Assembly (NCBI GenBank): GCA_021808285.1
Contig: JAKBBV010000031.1
Coordinates: 1-33,311, forward strand
Length of the DNA: 33,311 nt
Reading direction: 5' to 3'
Source: Pseudomonadota bacterium
GTDB taxonomy: Bacteria > Pseudomonadota > Alphaproteobacteria > Caulobacterales > Caulobacteraceae
The stretch's first letter is position 1. Every line of letters begins with the position of its first letter. Below the pieces are notes generated by a model that saw only the letters and a list, made by a program, of their open reading frames with translations, had not been told where the DNA came from and did not search any database. Below, piece after piece: positions 6,240 through 33,311 of this stretch. The position numbers and the translations under genes were made by a program.

Positions 6240-6277
6240 CTTGCGCCCCTCGCCCCTCGCAGGGGCGTGACTTGCGC
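6216..6277. repeat. 31-bp perfect tandem duplication spanning a stop codon
   Basis: Two identical 31-bp units (6216-6246 and 6247-6277), each containing the small hairpin GCCCCT-CGC-AGGGGC followed by GTGACTTGCG. The first unit encodes the last residues (SPLAGA-type end) and the TGA of the methyltransferase; the second copy lies after it and carries the same in-register TGA. It is probably a slippage duplication of a small palindromic motif. It occupies most of the 112-bp gap before the P450 gene. Confidence 0.9.
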
Positions 6278-19404: not shown

Positions 19405-20824
19405 ACTCCTGCTCGGGCTCGATGTCGGCACCACCTCGGTGGTCGCCGCCCTGTTCGCCCCGGACGGCCGGTCTCTGGGCCTGGGCCGGCGTCGCCTGAC
19501 CTCCGCCTCGCCCTCGCCCGGACGGGTGGAGCAGGATGCGGCGGCGGTCTGGCGGGCGGCGCGGGCGGCGATGCGCGCGGCCCTGGCGCAAGCGGGTCGC
19601 CAGGCGGCGGATCTGGCGGCCATCGGCATCGCCTCCCAGCGGGCCAGCGCCGTAATATGGGACCGCGCCACCGGCGCGCCGCGCTCGCCCCTGGTGGTGT
19701 GGAGCGATCTTCGCGGCCTCCAGCGCGCCGGAGAGCTGCGAGAGGCCGGCTTCATGATCGCCCCGCAACAGTCGGCCGCGAAGCTGGAGGGCATGATGGC
19801 CGCGGTCGAGGGCGGCGCGCCCCTCGCCTGGGGCAATATCGATAGCTACATCCTCTTCCGCCTGAGCGGGGGGGAGGCCCACGTCTGCGACCGCAGTCAG
19901 GCCTGGCCCTCCGGCTATCTGGACCTCGCCTCCCAGGGCTGGAACCCCGCCCTGATCGCCCACCAAGGCCTGGACCCCGACGCCTTCCCGACCCTGGTGG
20001 ACACCTGGGGGCCGATCGCGCGCGCCGATCCCCGCATCCTGGGCGCCGCCACACCGATTTGCGCCGATATCGCCGACCAGCAGGCCGCCCTGGTCGCCCA
20101 CGGCGAGAGCGAGGGCCTGATCAAGGCCACCTTCGGCACCTCGGCCACACTCGACCTCTCCACCGGCCCGCGGCTGGTGTTTCGAGACATGTCCATCCCG
20201 CCCTTCATCATCGCCTCGGCCGCGGGGGAGACCCGCTATTGCCTGGAAGGCATGGTCTATACCGCCGGCGCCGCGCTCGACTGGGTGCGCGGTCTTCTGC
20301 GCCTTGGCGATGTCGAGGCTTTCGACGCCCGCGCGGCGAGCGTGGCCGACAGCGGCGGGGCCTGGTTCCTGCCGGCCTTGCAGGGGCTGGGCGCGCCCTA
20401 TAGCCAGGGGCTCGTTCGAGGCGCCTTGGGAGGGCTCAGCCTGGCCACCGGTCCGGCCCAGGTGGCGCGGGCGGCCCTGGAGGGGGTGGCGTTCCGCGCC
20501 CGCGAGGTGTTCGACCACCTCTGCCGCGCGGCGGGGCAGCCGCCGCCGCCGTCCCTGGCGGTGGACGGAGGGCTCACCGCCAGCCGTCTGTTCCTGCAGA
20601 TCCAGGCCGACGCCCTGGGACGGCCGGTGCGGCGCTATGCCCATGCCGAGGCCACCGCCTGCGGCGCGGCGATCTGCGCCGGGCGGGGCGCCGGGCTGGC
20701 GATATCGACCGAGGCCTTCGCCGCCTATGACCTGACCGTGGAGCCGCGTCTGTCCGCGGACGAGACCGAAGCCCGCTTCAGCGCCTGGAAAGCGGCGGCC
20801 GTGGGTCCAACCGCAGCCGCCTGA
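19397..20824 (+). CDS. FGGY-family carbohydrate/polyol kinase
   Basis: A 475-aa kinase of the glycerol/xylulose/gluconate kinase superfamily. The N-terminal phosphate motif is GLDVGTTSVVAALF (7-20), followed by IGIASQRASAVIWD and LVVWSDLRG. The C-terminal FGGY part has ATFGTSATLDLS, GLGAPY and SLAVDGGLTASRLFLQIQADAL, the adenosine-binding segment. It is less GlpK-like than the partial glpK at the left edge, so a different polyol or alkylglycerol is possible. The start overlaps the preceding gene by 8 nt. Last gene of the glpD-AGPS-like-kinase string; the phage block starts 131 nt further on. Confidence 0.87.
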   Translation: MPELLLGLDVGTTSVVAALFAPDGRSLGLGRRRLTSASPSPGRVEQDAAAVWRAARAAMRAALAQAGRQAADLAAIGIASQRASAVIWDRATGAPRSPLVVWSDLRGLQRAGELREAGFMIAPQQSAAKLEGMMAAVEGGAPLAWGNIDSYILFRLSGGEAHVCDRSQAWPSGYLDLASQGWNPALIAHQGLDPDAFPTLVDTWGPIARADPRILGAATPICADIADQQAALVAHGESEGLIKATFGTSATLDLSTGPRLVFRDMSIPPFIIASAAGETRYCLEGMVYTAGAALDWVRGLLRLGDVEAFDARAASVADSGGAWFLPALQGLGAPYSQGLVRGALGGLSLATGPAQVARAALEGVAFRAREVFDHLCRAAGQPPPPSLAVDGGLTASRLFLQIQADALGRPVRRYAHAEATACGAAICAGRGAGLAISTEAFAAYDLTVEPRLSADETEARFSAWKAAAVGPTAAA

Positions 20825-20844
20825 GAGTCCGCGCCGGCAGGGGC

Positions 20845-20873
20845 TTGACGGCCGGGCGAGACTGTGTTGCAAT
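20845..20873 (+). promoter_or_regulatory. Candidate promoter ahead of the portal gene
   Basis: TTGACG (20845-20850) and TGCAAT (20868-20873) are 17 bp apart, in the 131-bp gap between the FGGY kinase and the portal gene. The -35 is near-consensus and the -10 is four of six. If real, the phage block has its own transcription start rather than relying on the kinase operon. Confidence 0.4.
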
Positions 20874-20955
20874 TTGCATGTTCACGGTGCTGCGCCCTTC
20901 GAAGCAGCCCGGACAATTCCACCTTTTTCGCAATCTTCTCACGCGGGAGCCCGGC

Positions 20956-22935
20956 ATGGCCGCTGCGAAACGCCCGGCGCCGCGACCGGGGAATGCCGCC
21001 CCATATCCCGACCTCCTCCGCCTCAAGCGCTACTTCACCGAGTTCGAGCAGCTCACCTACGAGGCCCGGCGCAACAGCCTCACCGCCATCGACTATTACG
21101 ACTCCGACCAGTTCACCCGGGAGGAGCTGGCCAAGCTGCGCGAGCGGGGACAGCCGGCGATCGTCATCAACCGCATCAAGCCGGCGATCAACGGCATCCT
21201 GGGCGTGGCGGAGAAGGGGCGGTCCGACCCGCGCGCCTGGCCGCGCAACCCCACCGACACGGACGCGGCGGATGTGGCGACCGACGTGCTGCGCTATGTG
21301 GCCGACTTCAACCGCTTCCGCCGGCTCAAGCTGGACGCCTTCAAGGACATGCTGATCGCCGGCACGGGCGCGGCCCTGATCGGGGCGGACGCGGACCTGC
21401 AGGTGACCATCACCCAGATTCGCTGGGAGGAGTTCTTCGCCGATCCCCGCTCGCGCCGGGCCGACCACAAGGACGCGCGCTATCTGGGCATCGCCAAGTG
21501 GATGTATGCCGACGACCTCGTCGCGCTCTATCCCGACAAGGCCCGCGAGGTCGCGCTCTCGGTGGAGAACACGCCCATCGGAGGGGGCATGGTCCCGGAC
21601 CAGAGCTTCCAGGACCGGCCTCTGAACGGCCCCGGAACGGGCGGGGCGTGGATCGACCCAAAGCTGCGGCGTCTCCTGGTGCTGGAGATGTATTGGCGGG
21701 ACGGGGCGGACTGGAACCGCTCGGTCTTCACCGGCTCGGACATCCTGGAGCACGGGCCGAGCCCCTATCTGGACCACAAGGGGCGCCCGACCTGCCCGAT
21801 CGAGGCCCAGAGCGCCTATGTGCGCCGGGATAACGGGCGTTACGGGGCGGTCTGGGACATGATCCCGGTGCAGGACGAGATCAACAAGCGCCGGTCCAAG
21901 AGCCTGCACCTCCTGAGCGTCACCCGCATCGAGGTGAAGGACCCCAGCGCGATCAATATCGACGCGGAGGAGGCGCGGCGCGAGGCGGCGCGGCCGGACG
22001 GGGTGATCCCCTATGGCTGGGGCCTCTCGCCCAACACCGCCGAGCTGCAGGGCAATCTGGAGCTGATGGCCGAGGCCAAGTCCGAGCTGGAGCGCATGGG
22101 CCCAAGCCCCGCGGTTCTGGGGCGCAGCGCCGAGGACGCTTCGGGCCGGGCCCTCCTGGCGCGCCAGCAATCGGGCCTGACCGAGCTGTCCCTGCTCTAT
22201 GGCGGTCTGGAGGACTGGGAGCTGCGGGTCTATCGCCAGTGCTGGGCGCGGGCCAAGCAGTTCTGGCGCGCGCCGCAGTTCATCCGCGTGACCGACGACG
22301 AGAACGCCCCGCGCTTCGTGGGGCTGAACCAGCCCATCTATGCCGACGCCCCACCTGACGTCGCCCCCTCCACCCCTTCGGGGTCCCCCTCCCCCGCTGC
22401 GCAGGGGAGGATGGTCCTGGGCTATCGCAACGCCCTGGCCGAGATGGACGTGGATATCGAGGTGGACACGCAGCAGGACGTGGGCAACCTCCAGGCCGAG
22501 GCGTTCAGCGAGCTGATCGACCTGGTGAAGCTGAGCCCCGCCTATCAGCAGCAGGTGAGCCTCAAGGAGCTGATCCAGCTCTCGCCCATCGTTCACAAGC
22601 AGGCGGTCCTCGACGTGATCGACCAGGCCGCCCAGGCGCAACAGGCCCAGGCGCAGCAGGAGCACGCGCTGGCCCAGGCCCACGGCCAGGCCCAGATCGG
22701 CAAGCTGCAGAGCGAGGCGCAGCGCAACCAGGCCGAGGGCACGGCCAGGATGTTGAACGCCCTTTCGGAGGCTCACGCCGTCCACGCCGAGCACAACGCC
22801 GCCGGCTTCGAGGCGGGCGTGGCGCAAGCTCAGGCGGACAAGGCCCAGGCCATGACGCAGCAACAGACGGCCGCCGAACAGGCCGCCGCGCAGACCGCGC
22901 AGGACCAAGCATTGAACGGAGGGGCGCCGACCTGA
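20956..22935 (+). CDS. P22-like portal protein
   Basis: A 659-aa portal (head-tail connector and DNA-entry ring), P22 gp1 type. The N-terminal half has YFTEFEQLTYEARRNSLTAI, QFTREELAKLRERGQPAIVIN and RIKPAINGILGVAEKGRSD, typical of P22-like portals; the middle has DMIPVQDEINKRRSKSLHLL. The last 110 residues are a long Gln/Ala-rich helix, as in the portal barrel. ATG 20956 (GGGAG six bases upstream) is chosen over a start at 20845 that would add 37 unrelated residues. At residues 470-486 the chain reads APSTPSGSPSPAAQGRM, the in-frame translation of a palindromic repeat found between other phage genes here. It sits between the clip/wing-like part and the C-terminal helix and would be a Pro/Ser-rich loop. 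Confidence 0.9.
   Translation: MAAAKRPAPRPGNAAPYPDLLRLKRYFTEFEQLTYEARRNSLTAIDYYDSDQFTREELAKLRERGQPAIVINRIKPAINGILGVAEKGRSDPRAWPRNPTDTDAADVATDVLRYVADFNRFRRLKLDAFKDMLIAGTGAALIGADADLQVTITQIRWEEFFADPRSRRADHKDARYLGIAKWMYADDLVALYPDKAREVALSVENTPIGGGMVPDQSFQDRPLNGPGTGGAWIDPKLRRLLVLEMYWRDGADWNRSVFTGSDILEHGPSPYLDHKGRPTCPIEAQSAYVRRDNGRYGAVWDMIPVQDEINKRRSKSLHLLSVTRIEVKDPSAINIDAEEARREAARPDGVIPYGWGLSPNTAELQGNLELMAEAKSELERMGPSPAVLGRSAEDASGRALLARQQSGLTELSLLYGGLEDWELRVYRQCWARAKQFWRAPQFIRVTDDENAPRFVGLNQPIYADAPPDVAPSTPSGSPSPAAQGRMVLGYRNALAEMDVDIEVDTQQDVGNLQAEAFSELIDLVKLSPAYQQQVSLKELIQLSPIVHKQAVLDVIDQAAQAQQAQAQQEHALAQAHGQAQIGKLQSEAQRNQAEGTARMLNALSEAHAVHAEHNAAGFEAGVAQAQADKAQAMTQQQTAAEQAAAQTAQDQALNGGAPT
22363..22412 (+). 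repeat. Two-hairpin palindromic element, in-frame copy inside portal gene
   Basis: Copy 1 of the element family. Hairpin 1 is ACCCC-TTC-GGGGT (22372-22384); the C-rich linker CCCCCTCCCCC follows; the second arm pair is CCCC...AGGGG around GCTGCGC. It begins exactly on a codon boundary and contributes no stop codon, so the portal frame stays open. The same sequence is found at 26051, 26601, 28440 and 28518 outside genes. Confidence 0.92.
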
Positions 22936-23020
22936 CGCGCGGTCAGCGTCTCAGTTTGAAATCCACCGCCGTTGACGAAGGGATCCGCAACAAACGGCGA
23001 ATTGATGCGGCCAGACAACA

Positions 23021-23090
23021 CCCAAAAAGGGAATTATCCCATCGTTTCCCAAAAAGGGTGTTGGCCCATCGTTTCCCAAAAAGGTGTTGG
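23021..23090 (+). repeat. Imperfect 26/27-bp tandem repeat with CCCAAAAAGGG cores
   Basis: Two full units, 23038-23064 and 23065-23090, share CCCATCGTTTCCCAAAAAGG and end in TGTTGG; the second lacks one G. A partial third core, CCCAAAAAGGG, is at 23021-23031. The block is framed by the inverted heptamers GAATTAT (23031-23037) and ATAATTC (23092-23098), which could be operator half-sites for the downstream toxin-antitoxin genes. Confidence 0.8.
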
Positions 23091-23115
23091 AATAATTCGC
23101 AACGTGCGATTTTAT
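23087..23115 (+). promoter_or_regulatory. Candidate promoter for the toxin-antitoxin genes
   Basis: TTGGAA (23087-23092) and TTTTAT (23110-23115) are 17 bp apart, about 120 nt upstream of the antitoxin ATG. The inverted heptamer ATAATTC overlaps the -35 and spacer, the usual place for autorepression by an antitoxin. Sequence-only prediction. Confidence 0.35.
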
Positions 23116-23237
23116 GCTGGCGAATTATGTGTGGGTCATACAATCGCCAACAGGCGCTACGAAATTAGAGCCGTGGAAAAGTTGTCGCCAACGAGGCGGA
23201 AGCCACACGTTGGAGCTAAAGCGGAAAGGAGGTCGTT

Positions 23238-23405
23238 ATGAGCTATGTCGAAAAGGCGCAATATGCGCCCGGTGCCGCGACCCCAAAAAATGAGCGCCCA
23301 AAAGAGTATTATCGCGCGCGCCCCTGCGGTGAGCTTGATTACAAAGCCCTCGTTGAAGACGTGAAGCGTAGGTTCCCGAAAATACTCGCGCACCTTGCTG
23401 AATGA
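23238..23405 (+). CDS. Putative antitoxin, 55 aa, partner of Doc
   Basis: A short gene with a strong ribosome site (AGGAGG five bases before ATG 23238). It encodes a 55-residue charged protein that starts MSYVEKAQYAP and ends with a predicted amphipathic helix, YKALVEDVKRRFPKILAHLAE minus its last residue. It overlaps the start of the Doc toxin gene by 11 nt, the usual antitoxin-first arrangement. It is not recognisably Phd: it is shorter and has no visible AbrB or Phd/YefM DNA-binding domain. Assignment as antitoxin comes from position and size, with some confidence that RFPK...LA-type C-termini occur next to Doc genes elsewhere. Low GC like the toxin. Confidence 0.65.
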   Translation: MSYVEKAQYAPGAATPKNERPKEYYRARPCGELDYKALVEDVKRRFPKILAHLAE

Positions 23406-23805
23406 GCCTTGCTGGATCACCGCAGAGGGGGTGATCCAGATTAATAAGGACATCTTGTCGGAAGGCGAGCGTCACGTTTTACGTGATCAGGACCTTCTCG
23501 AGAGCGCATGTCATAGGCCAAAGCATGCGTGGGCCCTCATTTGTGAGGACGACGTCGCAACCCTGGCGACTCTCCTCGCTTTTGGAATAGCGAAAAACCA
23601 CCCGTTCGAGCAGGGGAACAAGCGCACGGCGTTTGCGGCTATGGTGGGCTTTCTGGCCATCAACGGCTTTGCCCTGAGACTTCGGGATGACACCGCCTGT
23701 TCCAGCGCCATGCTTGCAGTGATCGTTGGTCAGGAGACCGAGGAGCAGTTCGCCGACTCTTTGCGTCGCGTGATCGAAATGGATGATCCAAGAGAATGGG
23801 TCTGA
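23395..23805 (+). CDS. doc: Death-on-curing (Doc/Fic-fold) family toxin
   Basis: A 136-aa Doc-family protein. Fic motif HPFEQGNKRTAF at 69-80, with catalytic His69 and the GNKR nucleotide-binding loop of Doc, which phosphorylates EF-Tu rather than AMPylating. The N-terminus (EPCWITAEGVIQINKDIL) and RDQDLLESACHRPKHAW match the family. The start is TTG 23395 or CTG 23398: no ATG lies in frame upstream, and the family usually begins right at the E-P-x-W block. It overlaps the putative antitoxin, implying coupled translation at an inefficient start, a common way to keep toxin below antitoxin. Base composition is lower in GC than adjacent phage genes, suggesting separate acquisition. Confidence 0.85.
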   Translation: MLNEPCWITAEGVIQINKDILSEGERHVLRDQDLLESACHRPKHAWALICEDDVATLATLLAFGIAKNHPFEQGNKRTAFAAMVGFLAINGFALRLRDDTACSSAMLAVIVGQETEEQFADSLRRVIEMDDPREWV

Positions 23806-23924
23806 ACTTGGTCATCGCCAACGACGATGTGAGCTTCGCCGACGACATGGTCGCGGTGATCGAAGGGACGATGACGCAGGAGGCCTTCGCCGACCGGCTG
23901 AGGGCGATGCTGACAGACATCTGA
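23796..23924 (+). pseudogene. Remnant of a second Doc C-terminus
   Basis: A 42-codon open stretch starting within the doc stop region and ending TGA 23922-23924. Its product contains SFADDMVAVIEGTMTQEAFA, then DRLRAML. This lines up with the end of the intact toxin next door (SSAMLAVIVGQETEEQFADS, then LRRVI): M-x-AVI-x-G, E-x-FAD-x-LR. It lacks the Fic motif and everything before it. Base composition is GC-rich like the phage, unlike the intact doc. It reads as the 3' end of an older doc gene left after the present module came in. It could alternatively be a chance small ORF, but the match spans about 30 residues. Confidence 0.65.
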
Positions 23925-23927
23925 CCA

Positions 23928-23950
23928 CCCCGCCGCCGGGGGGCCTTTGG
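23928..23950 (+). terminator. Possible terminator-like hairpin after the toxin region
   Basis: CCCC-GCCGCC-GGGG (23928-23941) followed by GGCCTTTGG. The stem is short and the T-run is only three bases, so it is weak. A second, better stem, GACCGGC...GCCGGTC (23973-23993), follows without T-run. Either could separate toxin transcription from the scaffold gene. Confidence 0.3.
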
Positions 23951-24031
23951 GCTGACGGGCGCCAATCGGGATGACCGGCCCCGCAAGCCGGTCCTGGCCG
24001 CCGCAGATCGGGCGACACGGGCCGCCACCGC

Positions 24032-24832
24032 ATGGGCGATGAGGATCAATCGAGAATGGACGAGACCGAACTGGCCTCCTTGATCGGAGGCGAGGGCGCA
24101 CCCGCGCCCGTTGAACAGGCGCCGCAAGCCAAGGCTCCCGACCCCGCTCCGCAACCGGACAGCACGCCCCAGGGCGCCGCGCCGTCGCGGGACGACAAGG
24201 GCCGCTTTGCGCCCAAGGGCGAGACGCCGCCGCAAGCCGCGCCTGGCGCCCCGGCCGCTCCCGAGTCTCCCGAGCCCGGCCATGTGCCGCTGGCCGCGAT
24301 GCTGGATGAGCGGGAGAAGCGCAAGGCGCTGGAGGCCAAGCTGGCCGAAGTGGAAGCGAGGCAGCGGGAAGCCGCCGCCCGCGCCTCCGCCGAGGACCTG
24401 CCGCCCGAAGCCCGCGCCGCGCAGCAACGCTATGCCGACAACCTGCGGATCTCCCGCAAGTTCGCCGACAAGGCCTATGGCGCGGAGACGATGGCGCAGG
24501 TCCACGCCTGGGCCGAAGCCCGGTGCGACGCCGACCCCCTGTTCAACCAGAAGATGCTCGCCTCGGACGATCCTTACGAGGACGCCTACACGGCCTGGCG
24601 TCAGGACCAGCTCCTGAACGAAGTCAGCCCTGACGACCTCGACGATTATCGCGCCTGGAAGGCCCAGAAGGCCGCCCAGGGCGCCGTTCCCGCGCACGCC
24701 CCCGCCGCCGCTGCGGCGCCGGTCCGGCCGCCTCCCGCCAGCCTCGCCCACGCGCCCAATGCGGGCGGACGCGGCGCGACGGAGGTCCCGGTCGGCGCGG
24801 GCGAAGCCTTCAAGAGCCTCTTCACCCGATAG
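24032..24832 (+). CDS. Putative scaffolding protein
   Basis: A 266-aa acidic, Ala/Pro-rich protein between portal and capsid, the position of the P22 scaffold gene. The N-terminal 90 residues are low-complexity, with DDKGRFAPKG in the middle. A charged coiled coil follows (about 93-118, LDEREKRKALEAKLAEVEAR). The rest is helical with a Pro/Ala linker, and a short C-terminal tail ends in FKSLFTR. Scaffold proteins are poorly conserved, so the call rests on order, composition and coiled coil. ATG 24032 has little ribosome site; ATG 24056 is in frame, with GAGG 12 bases upstream, and is equally possible. Confidence 0.65.
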   Translation: MGDEDQSRMDETELASLIGGEGAPAPVEQAPQAKAPDPAPQPDSTPQGAAPSRDDKGRFAPKGETPPQAAPGAPAAPESPEPGHVPLAAMLDEREKRKALEAKLAEVEARQREAAARASAEDLPPEARAAQQRYADNLRISRKFADKAYGAETMAQVHAWAEARCDADPLFNQKMLASDDPYEDAYTAWRQDQLLNEVSPDDLDDYRAWKAQKAAQGAVPAHAPAAAAAPVRPPPASLAHAPNAGGRGATEVPVGAGEAFKSLFTR

Positions 24833-24884
24833 GCCCCGCCGGATGGTCCGGCCGGGCAATCCCTGATTCAAGGATACCCAAACC

Positions 24885-26027
24885 ATGGCCGAGACCACTC
24901 TCGCGACCGCCTCCGAACGTCAGATCTGGATCACCAAGTATTTCCAGGAATACGTCCGGTATTCCCGCTTCGCCCCCTACATGTCGAACGCGGACATCAA
25001 CAAGGGCGGCATCATCCTCACCAAGTTCCAACGCGAGGACGAGGCCTACAAGACGATCAACGTCCCCTTCATCGCCCGGCTCAAGTCGGCCGGCGTCACC
25101 GGCGCCAGCGTGCTGGACGGCGCGGAGGAGGAGCTGGTCAACTACAACCTGCCGATCAGCATCGACTGGCGGCGCAACGGCGTTCGCCTGCCCAAGTCCA
25201 CCACCTTCATGACCGAGGTGAACCTGTGGGACGCGGCCAAGGACGCGCTCATGGTGTGGGAGAGCGAGAAGCTCCGCGACGACATCATCAAGGCCCTGGC
25301 GCAGATGGTCGTCGACACCAATGGGACGGTGGCGTTCAACGACCAGGCCACGGCGGCGCAGCAGAACACCTGGGTCACCGCCAACCCTGACCGGGTGCTG
25401 TTCGGCACGGCGAAGAGCTACTATTCGACCACCTTCGCCACGGCTCTGGCCAATGTGACCTCCGCCATGACCGCCTCGGCGAGCATGATGGGTCTGGCCA
25501 AGCGCATCGCCAAGCTGGCCGATCCGCACATCCGGCCCTTCCGGGTGGAGGATGGCGACGGGCGCGAATACTTCGTGGCCTTCCACGGCTCGCGCACCTT
25601 CCGCGACCTCAAGGCGGACACCACGATCTACAACGCCAACACCCAGGCCCGCAGCCGTGAAGGCATGGGCATGGACAAGAACCCGATCTTCCAGGACGGC
25701 GACCTGATCTATGACGGCGTGATCCACCGGGAAATCCCGGAGATCGACGCCTACTGCGATCTGTGCTCGTCCAACCCCAACGGCGGCGCGGCGTTCGACG
25801 GCGCGGGCGCTTCGGGCGCGGACGTGCGGCCGATCTTCGTCTGCGGCGGCGGTTCGGTGGCCGTGGCCTGGGGCCAGGAGCCGACCCCGCGCACGGACAT
25901 GATCAAGGACTACGGGTTCCGTCCCGGCGTCGCGATCGAGGAGCTGCTGGGGGTCAAGAAGGTCAACTACAACGGCATCCAGAACGGCATGGTCACCGTG
26001 TTCGCCGGCGCCGCCGCCGACAGCTGA
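24885..26027 (+). CDS. Major capsid protein (N4-gp56/DUF4043-like)
   Basis: A 380-aa coat protein. Features I associate with the N4-gp56/DUF4043 capsid family are the N-terminal KYFQEYVRYSRFAPYMS, then GGIILTKFQREDEAYKTINV and YNLPISIDWRRNGV. The C-terminal core has GREYFVAFHGSRTFRDLKAD, NPIFQDGDLIYDGVIHREIP, RPIFVCGGGSVAVAWGQEPT, then DYGFRPGVAIEELLGVKK. This is an HK97-fold capsid rather than the classic P22 coat sequence, although the portal is P22-like. AAGGAT precedes the ATG. The stop codon at 26025-26027 begins a stretch almost identical to the sequence at the holin gene stop. Confidence 0.88.
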   Translation: MAETTLATASERQIWITKYFQEYVRYSRFAPYMSNADINKGGIILTKFQREDEAYKTINVPFIARLKSAGVTGASVLDGAEEELVNYNLPISIDWRRNGVRLPKSTTFMTEVNLWDAAKDALMVWESEKLRDDIIKALAQMVVDTNGTVAFNDQATAAQQNTWVTANPDRVLFGTAKSYYSTTFATALANVTSAMTASASMMGLAKRIAKLADPHIRPFRVEDGDGREYFVAFHGSRTFRDLKADTTIYNANTQARSREGMGMDKNPIFQDGDLIYDGVIHREIPEIDAYCDLCSSNPNGGAAFDGAGASGADVRPIFVCGGGSVAVAWGQEPTPRTDMIKDYGFRPGVAIEELLGVKKVNYNGIQNGMVTVFAGAAADS

Positions 26028-26050
26028 TCCGGCTGACGCCTCGCCGTCTG

Positions 26051-26101
26051 GAGCCCCCTCCACCCCTTCGGGGTCCCCCTCCCCCGTGAACGGGGGAGGA
26101 T
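26051..26101 (+). repeat. Two-hairpin palindromic element, copy 2
   Basis: Hairpin 1 ACCCC-TTC-GGGGT, linker CCCCCTCCCCC, hairpin 2 CCCCCGTGAACGGGGG. It lies 23 bp after the capsid stop and is paired, in inverted orientation, with the next copy. Confidence 0.92.
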
Positions 26102-26106
26102 CAGAC

Positions 26107-26160
26107 AATCCTCCCCTGCGAAGCGGGGGAGGGGGACCGCTGAAAGCGGTGGAGGGGGCT
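26107..26160 (-). repeat. Two-hairpin palindromic element, copy 3 (inverted)
   Basis: Reverse-orientation copy facing copy 2 across 5 bp. Its hairpin 1 is ACCGCT-GAA-AGCGGT: different bases from ACCCC/GGGGT but fully paired. Hairpin 2 is formed by CCCCTGCGAAGCGGGG. Together copies 2 and 3 form a long near-palindrome on the capsid side of the DUF559 gene. Confidence 0.9.
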
Positions 26161-26195
26161 CGTCGGAGAGAGGCGCCAGGGACAAACCCGCGCCG

Positions 26196-26543
26196 TCAGG
26201 GCGTCTCGGGGGTGAAGATCGCCTGGAGGACCCCTTCCACACCCTCGTCGTCGAGCACTGCGGCGGCGGCGAAGCGGATCACCCGGATGCCGCGTTGTTC
26301 GAGCCAGAGACCGCGATCGGCGTCGTGAGCGGCCTGGGTCGGGTGGTCGTGGCCGGCGCCGTCGACCTCGACGGCGAGGCGCCGCTCGGGACAGAAGAAA
26401 TCGAGGATGTAAGGCCCCACAGGGTGCTGGCGTCGAAAGCGGGGTCTTCTCCCCCGGAGCAGGCTCCAGAGCTTCACCTCCGGCGCGGTCATCCGCCGCC
26501 GCAGGTCTCGCGCCCGACGAAAGGTCACATCGCCCGCCCGCAT
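26196..26543 (-). CDS. DUF559 / Vsr-like endonuclease-domain protein
   Basis: A 115-aa protein (127 if TTG 26579 is used) of the DUF559 family, related to very-short-patch-repair and PD-(D/E)xK nucleases. Family blocks from the ATG at 26543: RRMTAPEVKLWSLLRGRRP, FRRQHPVGPYILDFFCPE, then RLAVEVDGAGHD, with the acidic catalytic residues expected in LDFF and VEVDG, and LEQRGIRVIRF near the end. It is the only minus-strand gene in the phage block and sits between capsid and decoration genes, with palindromic element pairs on both sides. No structural role is likely; a selfish or repair nuclease is more plausible. No clear ribosome site at either start. Confidence 0.85.
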   Translation of the reverse strand: MRAGDVTFRRARDLRRRMTAPEVKLWSLLRGRRPRFRRQHPVGPYILDFFCPERRLAVEVDGAGHDHPTQAAHDADRGLWLEQRGIRVIRFAAAAVLDDEGVEGVLQAIFTPETP

Positions 26544-26600
26544 ACCGTCAAGGTGAGCGCAGATCGGGTTTCTGGGCAAGTCCTGCGGTCTCGCTCCCTG

Positions 26601-26650
26601 GAGCCCCCTCCACCCCTTCGGGGTCCCCCTCCCCCGTGAACGGGGGAGGA
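26601..26650 (+). repeat. Two-hairpin palindromic element, copy 4
   Basis: Identical to copy 2 over the whole core: ACCCC-TTC-GGGGT, the C-rich linker and CCCCCGTGAACGGGGG. It stands just upstream (by the nuclease gene's orientation) of the DUF559 start. Confidence 0.92.
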
Positions 26651-26660
26651 AGATTCAATC

Positions 26661-26686
26661 ATCCCCCCGTCTACGGGGGAGGGGGC
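26661..26686 (-). repeat. Two-hairpin palindromic element, partial copy 5 (inverted)
   Basis: Only the second hairpin and part of the linker remain: CCCCCGTCTACGGGGG then AGGGGGC. The loop differs from copy 4 (CT instead of GA centre) while the stem stays paired. It pairs with copy 4 to close the other side of the nuclease cassette. Confidence 0.8.
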
Positions 26687-26752
26687 GTCCAGAACGCGGG
26701 CTCTCCACACATCCCTCATCCCACACCCCTTTGATGAAAGGAGCGCGTCGCC

Positions 26753-27238
26753 ATGACCGCTTATTCGACCCAGAACGTCGTCAACAAGACCCCGGCCCTT
26801 AGCGGCCATGGGCTCTCCAAGAACCGCACCTGCCTGCACGCCAAGTCAGGGACCATCTCCACCTGGGCGGCGGGCGACACCCTCGCTGTCGGCTATCTGC
26901 CGCGGGGCGCGGTGGTGACGAGCGCGGTGCTCAAGGCCGCCAGCCAGCTGGACAGCAACGCCAGCCCCACCCTGGCGCTGGATCTGGGCGTCGCCGGGAC
27001 CGCGCAGCTCTTCAAGTCCGCCGTGACCACGGTGGGCCATTCCAGCGGCGCGAGCGCGGACGCCACGATCAACGCCGGGGGCCTCCTCTACGCCAACGCG
27101 ACCAGCAATGACGACACGACCGGATCGGATGTGGAGGTGATCGTCACCGTCCACACCGCCGCCGCGACGCCCGTCGCCGGCACGCTGGAGGTGCTGATCG
27201 ACTACTTCGTCGAGGACGCCACCGCGACCACGCCCTGA
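26753..27238 (+). CDS. Phage structural protein, possible capsid decoration protein
   Basis: A 161-aa protein rich in Ala, Thr, Val and Gly with an alternating beta pattern (GDTLAVGYLPRGAVVTSAVL, SPTLALDLGVAGT, VEVIVTVHTAAATPVAGTLE). No signal peptide or membrane segment. It has AAGGAG nine bases before its ATG. Its place after the capsid gene (the nuclease being an insert) and its composition suggest a head decoration or minor head protein. I do not recognise a specific family. Confidence 0.6.
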   Translation: MTAYSTQNVVNKTPALSGHGLSKNRTCLHAKSGTISTWAAGDTLAVGYLPRGAVVTSAVLKAASQLDSNASPTLALDLGVAGTAQLFKSAVTTVGHSSGASADATINAGGLLYANATSNDDTTGSDVEVIVTVHTAAATPVAGTLEVLIDYFVEDATATTP

Positions 27239-27269
27239 CGCCCCTAACCGCGAGACGGAGGCAGAGGCG

Positions 27270-27515
27270 ATGCAGGACAGCGCCTTGATCTACATCGCGG
27301 GCTTCGTGCTGCTTCAGACAGGCGTCATCGCCTTCTGGGGCGGCACGATGCAGGCGACGCTGCGACACCTTCAGGAGAAGGTGAAGCCCATCGACAACCT
27401 GTCCGACGACCTGATCCGGGTCGAGAGCAAGATGGCCGCCCTTCTGGAGCGGCTGGACGGCTGGGACCACGATCACAAGACCGCCCCGCGAGCCCGCAAG
27501 GCGGACGCGGCGTGA
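27270..27515 (+). CDS. Small phage membrane protein with coiled coil
   Basis: 81 aa: one N-terminal membrane helix (SALIYIAGFVLLQTGVIAFW), then a charged helix with heptad-like spacing (LQEKVKPIDNLSDDLIRVES, KMAALLERLD), then a basic tail. It overlaps the lysozyme gene by GTGA, so it is probably a lysis accessory (spanin-like or second holin), but I do not recognise the family. GAGACGGAGG precedes the ATG. Confidence 0.65.
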   Translation: MQDSALIYIAGFVLLQTGVIAFWGGTMQATLRHLQEKVKPIDNLSDDLIRVESKMAALLERLDGWDHDHKTAPRARKADAA

Positions 27516-27964
27516 CCTCGGCGGCGGACGCGGCGTTGCTGGCCCTCGCCGCGCCGCTCATCAAGGGCGAGGAGGCCTGTCGCCTCAGCGCCTATCAGGA
27601 CACGCGCGGCGTCTGGACCATCGGATGGGGCCGCGCCGACGCGGGTGTGCATCCTGGCATGACCTGCACCCAGGACCAGGCGGACGCGTGGTTCGAGGTC
27701 AAGGTCGCGGGCCTCATCGCCCAGCTCGACCGGGCCATCCCCTGGTGGCGGACCATGAGCCCGCCGCGCCAGGCGGTGTTGCTGGACATGGCCTATCAGC
27801 TGGGCCTGGCGGGGCTTCTCCGCTTCGCCAAGGCCCTCAGCGCCATGGAGGCTGGGGACTGGCGCGCGGCGCACGACGAGATGCTGGTCAGCGCCTGGGA
27901 CTGCCAGACGCCGAACCGCGCGCAAGCCGAGGCGCGCATCATGCTCACCGGCCAGATGGCCTGA
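27512..27964 (+). CDS. Phage endolysin, T4-type lysozyme (GH24)
   Basis: A 150-aa muramidase cutting the MurNAc-GlcNAc bond of peptidoglycan. The catalytic triad of the family, E-x8-D-x5-T, is exact: E21, D30 and T36 in EACRLSAYQDTRGVWTIGWG. Further blocks are QADAWFEVKV and RQAVLLDMAYQLGLAGLLRF. There is no signal peptide or SAR anchor, so it needs the holin to reach the wall. The GTG start overlaps the preceding stop. Confidence 0.93.
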   Translation: MTSAADAALLALAAPLIKGEEACRLSAYQDTRGVWTIGWGRADAGVHPGMTCTQDQADAWFEVKVAGLIAQLDRAIPWWRTMSPPRQAVLLDMAYQLGLAGLLRFAKALSAMEAGDWRAAHDEMLVSAWDCQTPNRAQAEARIMLTGQMA

Positions 27965-27980
27965 CCCCACGGAGATCCTC

Positions 27981-28415
27981 ATGTCCGATCCCACCCAGGC
28001 GCCCGCGCGCCCGGCCGCCATGCCCACCTATGCCGACACGCTGCTCTCCACCGTCCTCATGGGCGTGGGCGCGCCCCTTGTGGCGCGAGGCGTCATGACC
28101 GGCGCGCAGGAGCAGGCCGTCGGCGGCGGCATCCTGGCGGCGATCTGCGTGGCCTGGCAGATCCTGAACGCCAATCCCCATCGCCAGAGCCCCATCGTCC
28201 TGCTCAAGTCCCTGGTGAGCCGGGGCGGCGGGACGAGCGCCTACAACGCGGCCCTTCCGCAGGCGGAAGCGGCGCTGGTCGCCAAGATCGAGGCCATGGT
28301 CGACGCGGCCATCCACAGGAAGGCCGGCATCCTGGCCGGTCCGGTCGACACCGCCGCCAACGCCGTCATCCGCGACGCGGGCGCGCAAGCGGTCGAGCAC
28401 CTGCGGATCAGCTGA
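27981..28415 (+). CDS. Pam3-gp28-like putative holin
   Basis: 144 aa. The first 65 residues resemble the Pam3-gp28 putative holin family: TYADTLLSTVLMGVGAPLVA, RGVMTGAQEQAVGGGILAAI, then CVAWQILNAN, giving two hydrophobic segments separated by a short turn. The C-terminal half (Ala-rich, soluble) is longer than I expect for a holin. It follows the lysozyme by 16 nt. The stop codon at 28413-28415 lies at the start of a stretch nearly identical to that at the capsid stop. Confidence 0.7.
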   Translation: MSDPTQAPARPAAMPTYADTLLSTVLMGVGAPLVARGVMTGAQEQAVGGGILAAICVAWQILNANPHRQSPIVLLKSLVSRGGGTSAYNAALPQAEAALVAKIEAMVDAAIHRKAGILAGPVDTAANAVIRDAGAQAVEHLRIS

Positions 28416-28439
28416 TCGGGCTGACGCCTCGCCCGGCTG

Positions 28440-28492
28440 GAGCCCCCTCCACCGCGTTCCGCGGTCCCCCTCCCCCGTGAACGGGGGAGGAT
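28440..28492 (+). repeat. Two-hairpin palindromic element, copy 6
   Basis: Hairpin 1 is ACCGCG-TTC-CGCGGT, a third stem sequence, still fully paired; hairpin 2 is CCCCCGTGAACGGGGG as in copies 2 and 4. It begins 24 bp after the holin stop, the same distance class as copy 2 after the capsid stop. Confidence 0.92.
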
Positions 28493-28517
28493 CGGTTGCG
28501 GACGCCTCGCTCTTCTG

Positions 28518-28569
28518 GAGCCCCCACCACCCCTTCGGGGTCCCCCTCCCCCATTTGCATGGGGGGGAT
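28518..28569 (+). repeat. Two-hairpin palindromic element, copy 7
   Basis: Direct-orientation copy right after copy 6. Hairpin 1 ACCCC-TTC-GGGGT; hairpin 2 is CCCCCATTTGCATGGGGG, with the inner pairs changed from CG/GC to AT/TA and still complementary. Preceded by GACGCCTCGC, as are copies 2 and 6. Confidence 0.92.
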
Positions 28570-28575
28570 GAATTG

Positions 28576-28627
28576 ATCCTCCCCTGCGAAGCGGGGGAGG
28601 GGGACCGCGGGACGCGGTGGAGGGGGC
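28576..28627 (-). repeat. Two-hairpin palindromic element, copy 8 (inverted)
   Basis: Inverted copy facing copy 7 across 6 bp. Hairpin 1 is ACCGCG-GGA-CGCGGT; hairpin 2 CCCCTGCGAAGCGGGG matches copy 3. Copies 6-8 fill nearly all of the 267-bp gap before the next gene. Confidence 0.9.
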
Positions 28628-28682
28628 GGTCCAGGGCGACACGGCGGCCGCCCGTCCTGTTCAACCCCCAACGGAGACTCCC

Positions 28683-29060
28683 ATGTCCTGGTTTTCTCAA
28701 TATGTCGGCGATCCGCTCAAGGCCCTTCTGGTGAAGGCCGAGCAGGCGGTGGAGACCGATCTGCACGCCCTGGCCGGCGATGTCGCCAAGACGCTGCCCG
28801 CCGCGCCGGTGACGGCGGCCGTGGAGGTGCAGTTCGAGACCGACCTGCAAACGGCGGTGGATGCCGCGATCACCGCCGCGGTGGGCCCCGTGCCCGTGGT
28901 CGGCGCGCAGATCGACGCCGCCGCCGTGGCCGAGGCCAACAAGGCCATCGACTATCTGGTGCAGAAGGGCGGCGCGAGCCTCAACGCCCTGGCGGCCCAG
29001 GCCAAGGCCAAGCTGACGGCGTTCGCGGCGCAGACGCCCTCCACCGGCGTCGCGGCCTGA
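28683..29060 (+). CDS. Phage protein of unknown function
   Basis: A 125-aa, Ala/Val-rich, mostly helical protein (SWFSQYVGDPLKALLVKAEQ at the start; several Ala-rich helices, then KAIDYLVQKGGASLNALAAQ). A weak hydrophobic stretch around residues 65-80 is not a clear membrane helix. ATG 28683 is chosen because ACGGAGA lies just upstream and the in-frame reading before it is inside the repeats. I do not recognise a family. Position between holin and connector gene. Confidence 0.6.
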   Translation: MSWFSQYVGDPLKALLVKAEQAVETDLHALAGDVAKTLPAAPVTAAVEVQFETDLQTAVDAAITAAVGPVPVVGAQIDAAAVAEANKAIDYLVQKGGASLNALAAQAKAKLTAFAAQTPSTGVAA

Positions 29061-29085
29061 TCCTCAAGCCAGAAGGGGCACCGTC

Positions 29086-29760
29086 ATGACCACGCCGCGC
29101 CTGGCCATCACGCGCGCCCTGCGCCTTCTGGGGGCCATCGCGCCTGGAGACGGGCCCACGGCGGACGAGCTGGCCGTGGGTCTGGATGAGCTGCAGGACC
29201 TGATCCTCAACCTGCACGAGGCGCGCGGGTCGCTCCTGACGCTGGACATCACCGGACCGTTGAGCGGCCCGGTCGTGCCCGGCGAGAACCAGCGCCTGCG
29301 CATCCAGTCGGGAACGACGGTCACCGTCACCCTGCCCAACAGCGTGGCCATGTTCGGGGGTTATGACCCCTACGACTACGGCTTCGACGGCGCCTATATG
29401 AACGACCCCCAGGTGTTCCCGCCGGCGGGGAGCACGGGGCCCGCTGACTGGGTGGCGTGGCGACCGCCGCAGGACGGCGCGCGGATCGAGATCGTGGGCA
29501 CGCAGAGCGGGCTCTATTTCTACCGCGAGGACACCAACGCCTGGGTGAGCGCGCTGGGCCTCAGCCTGGATGGCGCTTTCCCCCTCAACAGCCGCTTTGA
29601 CGGCGAGGTCGCCGCCCTCCTGGCCGAGCGCGCGGCGGACGTGCTCTCCGGCGCGCCGCAGATCACCCCGACCCTGCAGGACCGCATCCGCAAGGCCCGC
29701 GAGGCCCTGATGACCCGCACCGGAACGCACCGGCGCGAGACGCGCGGCCAGTATTTCTGA
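29086..29760 (+). CDS. P22 gp4-like tail accessory / head-completion protein
   Basis: 224 aa. The N-terminus (ITRALRLLGAIAPGDGPTAD, then ELAVGLDELQDLILNLHEAR) is the pattern of the P22 gp4 'packaged DNA stabilization / tail accessory factor' family, which binds the portal and closes the head. The middle has NQRLRIQSGTTVTVTLPNSV, and the C-terminus a helix (LNSRFDGEVAALLAERAADV) and basic tail. AAGGGG lies seven bases before ATG. In P22 it follows the coat gene, consistent with the order here once lysis genes are set aside. Confidence 0.78.
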   Translation: MTTPRLAITRALRLLGAIAPGDGPTADELAVGLDELQDLILNLHEARGSLLTLDITGPLSGPVVPGENQRLRIQSGTTVTVTLPNSVAMFGGYDPYDYGFDGAYMNDPQVFPPAGSTGPADWVAWRPPQDGARIEIVGTQSGLYFYREDTNAWVSALGLSLDGAFPLNSRFDGEVAALLAERAADVLSGAPQITPTLQDRIRKAREALMTRTGTHRRETRGQYF

Positions 29761-29784
29761 CCCCTGACGCACAAGGAGGGGCCC

Positions 29785-29943
29785 ATGCCCTTCACCGGCC
29801 ACCAGGCCTTCGATCCGCAGGGCGAGAGCGATCTTGCCGTGGATGAGGCCCTCGACGCCCTGGAGACCGACTCCAAGGGCGATGTCCTGATCGTCACGCC
29901 GCAGACCCAATGGACTGGCCAGACCGCCTCGGAGAGCCTGTGA
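29785..29943 (+). CDS. Small phage ORF, 52 aa
   Basis: A 52-residue acidic protein with a strong ribosome site (AAGGAGG six bases before ATG 29785), followed by an overlap with the tailspike start (TGATG). It reads HQAFDPQGESDLAVDEALDA near the N-terminus and ends in TASESL. No family recognised. The coding support is the ribosome site, the tight spacing on both sides and the absence of another gene in the gap. Confidence 0.6.
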   Translation: MPFTGHQAFDPQGESDLAVDEALDALETDSKGDVLIVTPQTQWTGQTASESL

Positions 29944-32102
29944 TGCGATACCGCCTGATCCGCGCCGTTTCGGCTCTCGCCCTTTTGGCTTCCTGTCAGG
30001 GCGAGGCGGCCTTCGCCCAGAACGTCGGCCTGCCCAGCCTGCCCGCGCACGGCTATGCCGCCGCCACGGACCTGATCCCCATCCAGGCGCCGGGCACGAC
30101 GCAGCTTCAGAGCACGCCGGTGGGCTATCTTTCCACCGTGCTGGGCGTGCTTGGCGGCTCCAATGCGTGGACCGGGGCCAACAGCTTTTCCCAAGCCCCA
30201 ACCTTCGGCGCGCCCCTGGCCGTGACCTCGGGCGGCACGGGCGGCGTGACGGCCACGGCCGCCCGCACCAGCCTTGGCGCGGCGGCTCTGGGCGCGAACA
30301 GCGACATCACGTCTCTGACGGGGCTGACGACCGCGCTTCCGCTTACGGAGGGCGGCACGGGCGAGGCAACGGCCCCCGCCGCGCTCAATGCCCTCAGCGG
30401 CCTTCCTCACCTCGCCAACAAGGCCGCGCTCACGGCTGCGGCCTCCACGGCCTATCCCATCGTGGTCCGGGACGGCTATGCGACGGCGGGGGACGCGCAA
30501 CAGCTTTCCTATCTGCCCTCGTCATCCCCCTGCCCGATCTCCGGCGGCGACGGCGGCTCGCAGATCCCGACCTCGGACGGCAAGTGCTGGCTGGCGGTGT
30601 TCCCCGAGGGCCGCGTGGACGTGCGCGAGTTCGGGGCCAAGGGCGACGGGACGACGAACGACACGGCGGCCGTGGTCGCCGCGCGCAACTTCGTGGCGAC
30701 CAATACGGCGCTGTATTATCTCTACTTCCCGCCGGGAAAGTATGAGATCAGCTACCTGCCGCTCCAGGTCGCGGGCTTCCGCCTTCGCGGCGCGGGCCAC
30801 AACCTCGTCACCCTGCAACGCCTGGCGGGATCGGCCAATTCGGTCCTGATCGACGGAAGCAGCTGCGCCCTCGGAAACAGCGCCCCGGCGGTCAACTCTG
30901 TCTCCGTCGAGGGCGTCACCCTGGATGGAAACAAGGCGAACATAACGCGGCCGGCCGACGACACGACCGAGTGGGGCATCTGCTACACAAACGACTCTTA
31001 TTCTGCGGTTCGAGACGTTGTAGCGCAGAATTTCTGGAACGGGGGCGTCGGGATATTCATCAATTCCAACTATGACAACGCCCAGGGATGGTCGAACAAC
31101 AACGGTCAGGGGTCCGTCTCCGTGGGCACCGAGCCGGGATTGGACATCAACGCCTCGAAGTTTGACATTGTGGACTGGATATCGACTGGCGGCGATTATC
31201 TCGGCGGCCGCATCCTCAACAATTCCTGGGGCGATCACTTCAAGCTGACCGTTTACAACCCCGTCACTGTAGGCTTTGAAGACGCGGCGTTCGCCGCAGG
31301 CACGGGCATCAACTACGCCAACATTTCAAACGTCTCTATTGTCGGCGGCGCGTCCGGAAGCGCTCTTGACGTTACCGGAGATGTTCACGGCGACATCATC
31401 CACGTGACGGCCCAAGGCACGACCGGCCAGTGTGTGATCTCCGACAATGGCGCAAGCGGCGACAACGCGACGGGCAATGCGATCACAGCCGTCACCTACG
31501 GCAACGCCGGCGAGGTGCTGTGCAACACGGCCTCGGGCGAGACCTACAACATTTCGTCGAGGGGCGATGGGACCTCCGCCTCGTACACAAACAACCTTTG
31601 GCTGCTGGACATCACCGGATCGAACAACACGATCGCAGCGAACCTTCAGGGCAACAGCGTCAACTATCTGGGAGGCGTCGCCTTCCGCTCCGGCGCGGCC
31701 GGAAACCGGTTCGGGGCCTTCCGCATCTCCGGTATGGGAACGGGGGTGAACCTCTATCAAGATCTCAACGGTGCTTCGACAACCAACCTGCCTCCCACCA
31801 ACTTTCAGACGCCGGCCGCCACGCTCACCCTCAACTCCGGCTGGTCTTGGACCGGGTCGGCTGGCACATGCTACGTGGATAGCTCTGGCTTGGTCCACCT
31901 GCGTGGCGTCGCCGGAGGCGGCACGGGCTCGATCCTGACACTTCCAGCCCAGTGCTGGCCCCAAACCTACAACGTGTTTGTCGGAGACCCCGGCGGGTCG
32001 TCCGTGCAAATCCTTTCCTCCACGGGGGCGGTCAACGTCCAAAGCGGCTCGGGCCCCTATAATTTGACCATCGGCTACCCTGGCGCCAACTTTGGGAATT
32101 GA
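29943..32102 (+). CDS. Tailspike / pectate-lyase-fold fiber protein with signal peptide
   Basis: 719 aa. From ATG 29943 the first 26 residues look like a Sec signal (MRYRLIRAVSALALLAS, C18, then GEAAFAQ): basic start, hydrophobic core, a possible lipobox LASC and an A-F-A site. Next come two tail-fibre-type repeats (VTSGGTGGVTATAARTSLGA; PLTEGGTGEATAPAALNALS). At about residue 230 the phrase VDVREFGAKGDGTTNDTAAV begins a right-handed beta-helix of the Pectate_lyase_3 kind common in tailspikes, probably binding or cutting a surface polysaccharide. From about 30,950 on the DNA is visibly less GC-rich. An in-frame ATG at 29910 would hide the signal and overlap the small ORF. Confidence 0.8.
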   Translation: MRYRLIRAVSALALLASCQGEAAFAQNVGLPSLPAHGYAAATDLIPIQAPGTTQLQSTPVGYLSTVLGVLGGSNAWTGANSFSQAPTFGAPLAVTSGGTGGVTATAARTSLGAAALGANSDITSLTGLTTALPLTEGGTGEATAPAALNALSGLPHLANKAALTAAASTAYPIVVRDGYATAGDAQQLSYLPSSSPCPISGGDGGSQIPTSDGKCWLAVFPEGRVDVREFGAKGDGTTNDTAAVVAARNFVATNTALYYLYFPPGKYEISYLPLQVAGFRLRGAGHNLVTLQRLAGSANSVLIDGSSCALGNSAPAVNSVSVEGVTLDGNKANITRPADDTTEWGICYTNDSYSAVRDVVAQNFWNGGVGIFINSNYDNAQGWSNNNGQGSVSVGTEPGLDINASKFDIVDWISTGGDYLGGRILNNSWGDHFKLTVYNPVTVGFEDAAFAAGTGINYANISNVSIVGGASGSALDVTGDVHGDIIHVTAQGTTGQCVISDNGASGDNATGNAITAVTYGNAGEVLCNTASGETYNISSRGDGTSASYTNNLWLLDITGSNNTIAANLQGNSVNYLGGVAFRSGAAGNRFGAFRISGMGTGVNLYQDLNGASTTNLPPTNFQTPAATLTLNSGWSWTGSAGTCYVDSSGLVHLRGVAGGGTGSILTLPAQCWPQTYNVFVGDPGGSSVQILSSTGAVNVQSGSGPYNLTIGYPGANFGN

Positions 32103-32197
32103 GGCAGTGTCACCGAGCGCACCGGAGAAATGTTCTGTGGGCACCGGCGAATCAGACAGGTGCGTTGCGCGATATTACTATGGAGATTTGAAGCGCC

Positions 32198-33298: not shown

Positions 33299-33311
33299 GT
33301 TTGGACCGTCG

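Follow-up and report, generated by a model that had tools for sequence, protein, structure and literature searches.

A REP-like palindromic repeat in frame within the portal gene of an apparently phage-derived locus in Caulobacteraceae

Short palindromic repeats of the REP type are mostly intergenic and sometimes lie within coding regions, where, according to one source, they may be neutral owing to their siting in flexible linkers or loops (PMC3733652). Rickettsia palindromic elements are ~150 bp long, with close to half of the R. conorii ones lying in genes, and the CIR elements of Caulobacter are described as strictly intergenic (both from excerpts of PMC10969869). In the portal protein of phage P22, the wing ends at residue 524, the crown starts at residue 525, and residues 495-504 contact the scaffold (PMC12005531, in part), while the hammer loop comprises residues 456-505; it folds against the crown of the procapsid, and in the virion it is disordered (PMC5290284 and PMC13386823, in part). 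Intragenic REPs and the Rickettsia elements are already known; no report of a REP-like insertion in phage portal or other head genes was found among the best-ranked matches in the open-licence literature.

The window, by which we mean the whole 33,311-nt stretch of DNA analyzed in this study, comes from a draft assembly of 105 contigs, the one assembly from which its portal allele is known. The portal gene (20956-22935, + strand; 659 codons and a stop) was assigned to the P22/Pam1-like type (PF16510, phrog_156) by a Pfam profile search, in which PF16510 was matched over nearly its full length (E 1.2e-100, profile positions 2-589 of 594), and by the portal fold of its product. Structural and sequence comparisons identified the cyanophage portals Pam1 (7eep) and Pan3 (9vyf) as the closest solved structures, and the named relatives of the window portal are Caulobacteraceae records. 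Downstream are a scaffold-like gene (24032-24832, + strand), named by its position between portal and coat and without a match in Pfam or PHROGs, and the gene for the coat (major head) protein (24885-26027, + strand; PF13252, phrog_334).

Positions 22363-22412 of the portal gene (+ strand; GCCCCCTCCACCCCTTCGGGGTCCCCCTCCCCCGCTGCGCAGGGGAGGAT) hold a full copy of a two-hairpin, REP-like element, annotated from a direct-repeat family (D2), from pattern matches across the genome and from folding calculations. The D2 family links the portal stretch to three other window members, at 26032, 26582 and 28499. The element consists of a small hairpin, CCCCTTCGGGG, followed by CCTCCCC-N9-GGGGAGG; both hairpins are kept in the portal copy, the second with a mismatch, and a 31-nt stretch of this copy matches the family pattern exactly. 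The original prediction had described the insert as palindromic, which is true of the repeat family, but the portal copy alone was no stabler than shuffled DNA (z -1.10 on the + strand, 26 of 200 shuffles as good; z -1.68 on the - strand, 17 of 200). Three other window copies folded with z of -2.58, -2.83 and -4.82, and the weak fold of the portal copy is explained by its mismatched second hairpin. Judged from sequence, the identification of the portal element rests on repeat identity and not on folding. A chance palindrome was considered and ruled out by this identity together with a gap in the sister gene described below.

As had been predicted, the element starts on a codon boundary, with codon 470 opening at position 22363, and the translation of codons 470-486 is APSTPSGSPSPAAQGRM. 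The lack of a stop had been offered in support of the insertion; the frame is indeed open, but this says little, since stops were absent from each of the six frames in between 12 and 16 of the 16 distinct copies of the element. Because the element is open in almost every frame, its being stop-free in the portal carries little weight, and it bears no sign of adaptation for coding; the open frame was dropped as an argument.

Six further copies of the element, with at most one substitution per arm, were found in the window, and they fall between the + strand phage genes apart from an 11-base ORF overlap of the last. The first lies past the coat gene and outside the phage genes of the + strand (26053-26102, + strand), and is joined by a copy inverted relative to it (26109-26159, - strand); another lies at 26603-26652 (+ strand), between ORF 26196-26579 (- strand) and ORF 26753-27238 (+ strand). 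The other three comprise a copy 3' of ORF 27981-28415 (28442-28493, + strand), a degenerate copy with one substitution in its first arm (28520-28570, + strand) and an inverted copy (28577-28627, - strand) that overlaps the initial 11 bases of mechanical ORF 28617-29060. A minus-strand ORF at 27948-28850 contains three copies and drew 3 to 6 spanning tblastn matches; it was set aside as a presumed shadow of the phage genes on the + strand.

Whole genomes were searched with a strict pattern, CCCCCTCCACC-N4-14-GGTCCCCCTCCCC, and with the reversed pattern as a control. The strict pattern occurred 13 times in the 2.9-Mb genome and the control not at all; the longer hairpin alone was present at 17 sites. 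Six of the 13 strict copies lie within 20842-33311, a region taken as phage-derived that represents 0.43% of the genome. Counting the strict pattern only, 139 of 199 family genomes had at least one copy, with no control match in any of the 199. A scan of viral contigs returned at least 120 stretches with the element, which makes it a common repeat there. One Y1_Tnp gene was found in the genome, and the 3 kb examined around it contained no copy of the element.

The position of the element relative to genes was assessed for 48 copies in four genomes of the same genus, within 40 regions chosen around listed copies and not at random. Here, a copy was spanned by 42 distinct ORFs with a length of 110 aa or more, and none of the 30 that were scanned had Pfam domains flanking the element on both sides. 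Two of these 30 had a Pfam match, with the domain starting past the element in both (element within residues 200-245 and domain from 349 in L156; element near residue 32 and domain from 88 in L180), and silence in Pfam is no proof that such ORFs are not genes. In-gene copies thus numbered none shown in this sample, and at least 6 of 129 on 80 viral contigs. The element looks mainly intergenic; as a short palindromic repeat in several copies, it is REP-like in these respects.

These properties set the element beside three described systems. Going by the excerpted account of intragenic REP units of the GTAG and CGTC super-families (PMC3733652), the likeness is that both are short, palindromic, mostly intergenic and in some cases within genes; the present element differs in its length of ~50 nt, in its two hairpins and in its targets, which are phage portal, capsid, scaffold-like and terminase genes, with two unrelated repeats in one loop, and it is compared with those super-families by description only. 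The parallel with the Rickettsia elements drawn in the original prediction is a loose one: a palindromic repeat lies in frame within functional genes in both cases (PMC10969869 and PMC3733652, in part), but the element is 50 nt long, about a third of the Rickettsia length, looks mainly intergenic in the sample instead of having a large in-gene share, and shows no sign of favoring a reading frame. The Caulobacter CIR elements, compared by description only, are repeats of Caulobacter genomes, and the relatives of the portal come from Caulobacteraceae records; they differ in their strictly intergenic location as given in the consulted part of PMC10969869.

Alignment to a homologue lacking the insert was possible with the portal L026, which lies on contig G021:C24 (match coordinates 2236-4176 coincide) in a genome with no strict copies of the element. 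L026 and the window portal share 92% nucleotide identity (1772 of 1926 aligned columns, counted to 56 bases beyond the L026 stop). Pairwise alignment placed a gap of 54 nt, or 18 codons, in L026 at the loop; elsewhere the alignment has a gap of 3 columns close to the start and gaps of 15 and 56 columns toward the end. The loop reads QPVQDETTGAVL in L026 and QPIYADAPPDVAPSTPSGSPSPAAQGRMVL in the window. BLAST homology ends at 22334 and restarts at 22413, and the loop segment absent from the sister (22335-22412, + strand) therefore comprises the element and ~28 nt to its left that are also unshared, for a net difference of +54 nt. The claim of an in-frame palindromic repeat within the portal gene was confirmed by this gap in a 92% identical sister and by the 13 strict copies in the genome. 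The estimate of about 17 added residues agrees with codons 470-486 and needs amending in other respects, as the bare element of 50 nt is no multiple of three, the gap in the sister is 18 codons and the left 28 nt are unshared as well. Since neighboring loop codons differ too, the loop was remodeled and not merely made 17 residues longer, and since a 50-nt insertion alone shifts the frame, the length must have been corrected either in the event itself or afterward. The unshared left 28 nt would count against a clean single insertion.

The structural setting was explored with a model of the portal built from 41 aligned portals (mean pLDDT 77.4, pTM 0.66). Residues 466-483 had pLDDT below 50, which is no proof of disorder, and lie between strands 459-462 and 487-491, with a helix at 512-526 after them. 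The insert is thus probably in an exposed, low-confidence loop, as had been suggested; its location between wing and helical barrel was not borne out, the loop appearing from the model to be a wing loop that we presumptively label hammer-type and not a wing-barrel linker. Model residues 18-506 aligned to P22 residues 6-523 (9jg6), with similar ranges for other P22 entries and 14-16% identity over the structural alignments, and strand order places the window loop at the P22 hammer loop. The sequence profile aligned only residues 20-193 with P22, leaving the hammer-loop part unaligned. Like the P22 hammer loop (PMC5290284, PMC13386823), the window loop appears to be a surface loop of the wing shortly before the crown, with equivalence by topology only. 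In the alignment with the Pam1 portal (7eep), the loop at this place contains no such Pro/Ser sequence.

The loop was then compared across 104 distinct portals, 102 of which span it. Its length in tblastn alignments of these 102 ranged from 4 to 72 residues, with a median of 22. Repeats of the three patterns searched sit in the loop of three of the 102 portals, the window portal and two others that carry another repeat, and nowhere else in the 102 portal coding regions; the sole further match, in L029, falls beyond the stop codon. The second repeat is palindromic and unrelated to the window element, and it encodes LLRQG[YF]GGQA by CCTCCTTCGCCAAGGCTACGGAGG and a close variant (LLRQGYGGQA in L037, which is the same as L196; LLRQGFGGQA in L031, on contig G105:C381). 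It was also seen outside the portal gene in several related contigs and is rare, with 0 to 2 places per genome in five genomes at up to one mismatch. In a tree of 50 portals that excluded the loop, the window portal paired with L026 (100/100). The clade around them (100/100) has 17 rows, of which 15 have short loops and the other two are the window and L037. The tree placement of L037 and L031 requires two origins for the second repeat, with the caveat that L031 is on a long branch (0.48); counting the window element, repeats have then reached this loop three times. With arrivals spread uniformly over 640 codons, the chance of three in one 27-codon stretch would be ~0.002, and selection against insertions elsewhere in the portal is the obvious reason for the clustering. 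Repeat-free relatives carrying the same Pro/Ser loop, which would have pointed away from an insertion, did not appear among relatives of at least 50% identity, whose examined loops lack the window's Pro/Ser sequence.

In-frame copies were additionally identified in other head and packaging genes. A homologue of the scaffold-like gene (L052), itself without a family match, carries the same element in frame, as do two HK97-type capsid proteins (L273 and L332; PF05065, TIGR01554), in which it precedes the Pfam capsid domain, and three HK97-type portals (L320, L340 and L349; PF04860). In the terminase large subunit L279, the element takes up residues 172-183, within a longer extra stretch between domains PF03237 (residues 10-144) and PF17289 (residues 195-348). 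Conserved sequence flanks both sides of the in-frame copy, and element-free homologues were found, in all of these cases. The in-gene count on the 80 viral contigs is a minimum, since judgment was limited to 16 candidate frames; L273, L279, L320, L340 and L349 were accepted from these, with L332 added through its alignment to L273. As the viral collection is viral by construction, the counts are no proof that head genes are hit above host genes. Eleven other loci (L308, L283, L309, L295, L300, L291, L290, L346, L345, L326 and L311) were rejected as intergenic-spanning ORFs or shadow frames, the in-gene candidates in L034 and L074 as shadow frames, and L068 as an upstream extension. The element strand equaled the coding strand in 8 of 8 accepted in-gene copies (two-sided 0.008); the three HK97 portals share one site and the two capsids another, leaving five independent sites (two-sided 0.06), and an orientation bias is not claimed.

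The explanation that we consider probable is that a REP-like element of the host family was tolerated in a loop of the portal, where it is read as a disordered peptide in a protein that stays constrained. The element, ~50 nt with two GC-rich hairpins and mainly intergenic, would have been copied into a portal gene belonging to a phage-derived cluster of the P22/Pam1-like type. It may have moved in the manner proposed for REP-like elements, via a transposase of presumed Y1/RAYT type acting in trans or by recombination between repeats. The landing site would have been a length-variable wing loop at what by topology is the P22 hammer-loop position, and neighboring loop codons would have changed along with the insertion, giving the net +54 nt relative to the sister. 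Given that the repeat is stop-free in nearly every frame, the sole real condition would be a total length change divisible by three. The outcome would be a disordered Pro/Ser/Gly peptide, presumably neutral, in a portal protein that is presumably made and assembled. Selection would purge insertions elsewhere in the ring protein and spare this loop, which would also account for the second, unrelated repeat in the same loop of two other portals.

An adaptive insert, in which the length or flexibility of a hammer-type loop tunes contact with crown and scaffold and thereby the procapsid-to-virion switch, and repeats there are retained for a function, seems unlikely to us. It draws on the behavior of the P22 hammer loop, which goes from a folded to a disordered state between procapsid and virion and touches the scaffold (PMC5290284, PMC13386823 and PMC12005531, in part), on the three arrivals of repeats at this site and on the same-family repeat that a related phage carries in its scaffold-like gene. 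However, loop length varies widely (4-72 residues) without recognized repeats, which is what a tolerant loop would show, different peptides are encoded there by the two repeat families, and equivalence with the hammer loop was established by strand order only, in a part that the profile left unaligned with P22.

Relaxed selection was judged slightly less likely again. Here, the cluster would be a decaying remnant in which the insert was simply not purged, consistent with the absence of a terminase beside the portal and the orphaning of the cognate terminase on another contig. Such decay is at odds with the portal, scaffold-like and coat genes, all open and conserved, and with the orphan terminase frame, which is open over 524 aa. 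Furthermore, comparison of the window portal with L026 over 631 codons outside the loop gave dN 0.027 and dS 0.263, a ratio of ~0.10 that also covers the time before the insertion and does not isolate the period after it. Purifying selection acts on the portal gene as a whole. The view that the insert leaves a long structural protein unbroken is supported by the retained frame and by the gene-wide ratio, subject to the same inclusion of pre-insertion time.

A misjoin of the repeat into the portal gene during assembly or binning would be a more prosaic origin, and the draft state of the genome (105 contigs), with copies of the repeat near the ends of contigs C51 and C80, gives it some footing. 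We regard it as very improbable, as a misjoin at a repeat would usually unite unrelated flanks and those found here are two halves of one gene in register with the sister, and as similar insertions occur in other head genes on independent contigs. That the Pro/Ser loop is native and resembles the repeat by chance can practically be dismissed: long Pro-rich loops do exist in other homologues, such as L030, and the portal copy folds no better than shuffles, but a 31-nt exact pattern match, a sister without the sequence and a reversed control that scored zero in 199 genomes speak against it.

Returning to a host-family REP-like element tolerated in the portal loop, the locus offers a natural experiment, with a 92% identical sister lacking the insert and two portals holding an unrelated repeat in the same loop. 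This permits a test of how far a P22-type switch loop can lengthen in a ring protein. The in-frame REP-like repeats in portal, capsid, scaffold-like and terminase genes suggest bacterial intergenic repeats as a source of linkers for phage head proteins. A broader proposition, which we put forward tentatively and with more doubt than confidence, is that head and packaging genes of alphaproteobacterial phages or phage-derived loci repeatedly capture host REP-like palindromes in frame, in linkers and switch loops, that these become new virion loop sequence and that the P22-type hammer-loop switch is altered in the process.

Several minor observations were made on the head genes. The element is at the same place in the three HK97-type portals (L320, 241-295; L340, 2714-2765; L349, 1833-1885), where hairpin lengths differ, so that the reading phase varies in its second half and the downstream frame is kept. 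The Pro-rich linker of the scaffold-like protein contains other palindromic stretches in L036, L038, L049, L050, L027, L053 and L037, classed as palindromic only, by their fold.

Regarding gene order, the portal-scaffold-coat cluster starts ~130 bp (20824-20956) past the gene for an FGGY kinase, with no terminase adjoining. Homology with L026 stops ~115 bp before the portal, and different genes lie upstream there. The cognate terminase is a lone open gene on another contig (L394, 7896-9434, - strand), 64.5% identical to the L034 terminase; the LysR and MFS genes near it are, we assume, host-type. Terminase and portal were on separate contigs in seven of nine same-genus genomes and adjacent in G095 and G046, a comparison limited by draft contigs. 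Altogether, the arrangement resembles a set of phage genes that has been scattered and possibly domesticated.

A promoter- or operator-like motif precedes the portal gene (20845-20879, + strand), with similar motifs in related loci. The motif, TTGACnnCCGGnCGnnAnTATGTTGCAATATGCAA with the palindromic TTGCAnnnTGCAA, was found in 22 of 88 related loci at up to six mismatches, mostly just 5' of the portal, including sites at L026 3583, L028 7918 and L045 1956. It is single-copy in this genome at up to three mismatches, and a looser version was recognized by eye upstream of the orphan terminase. Between the portal and the scaffold-like gene, a lower-GC stretch (23395-23805) matched a Doc-like toxin family (phrog_577, E 7.1e-21), and imperfect tandem repeats containing CCCAAAAAGGG were noted at 23021-23074. 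Elsewhere in the window, positions 6216-6277 form a perfect 31-nt tandem duplication.
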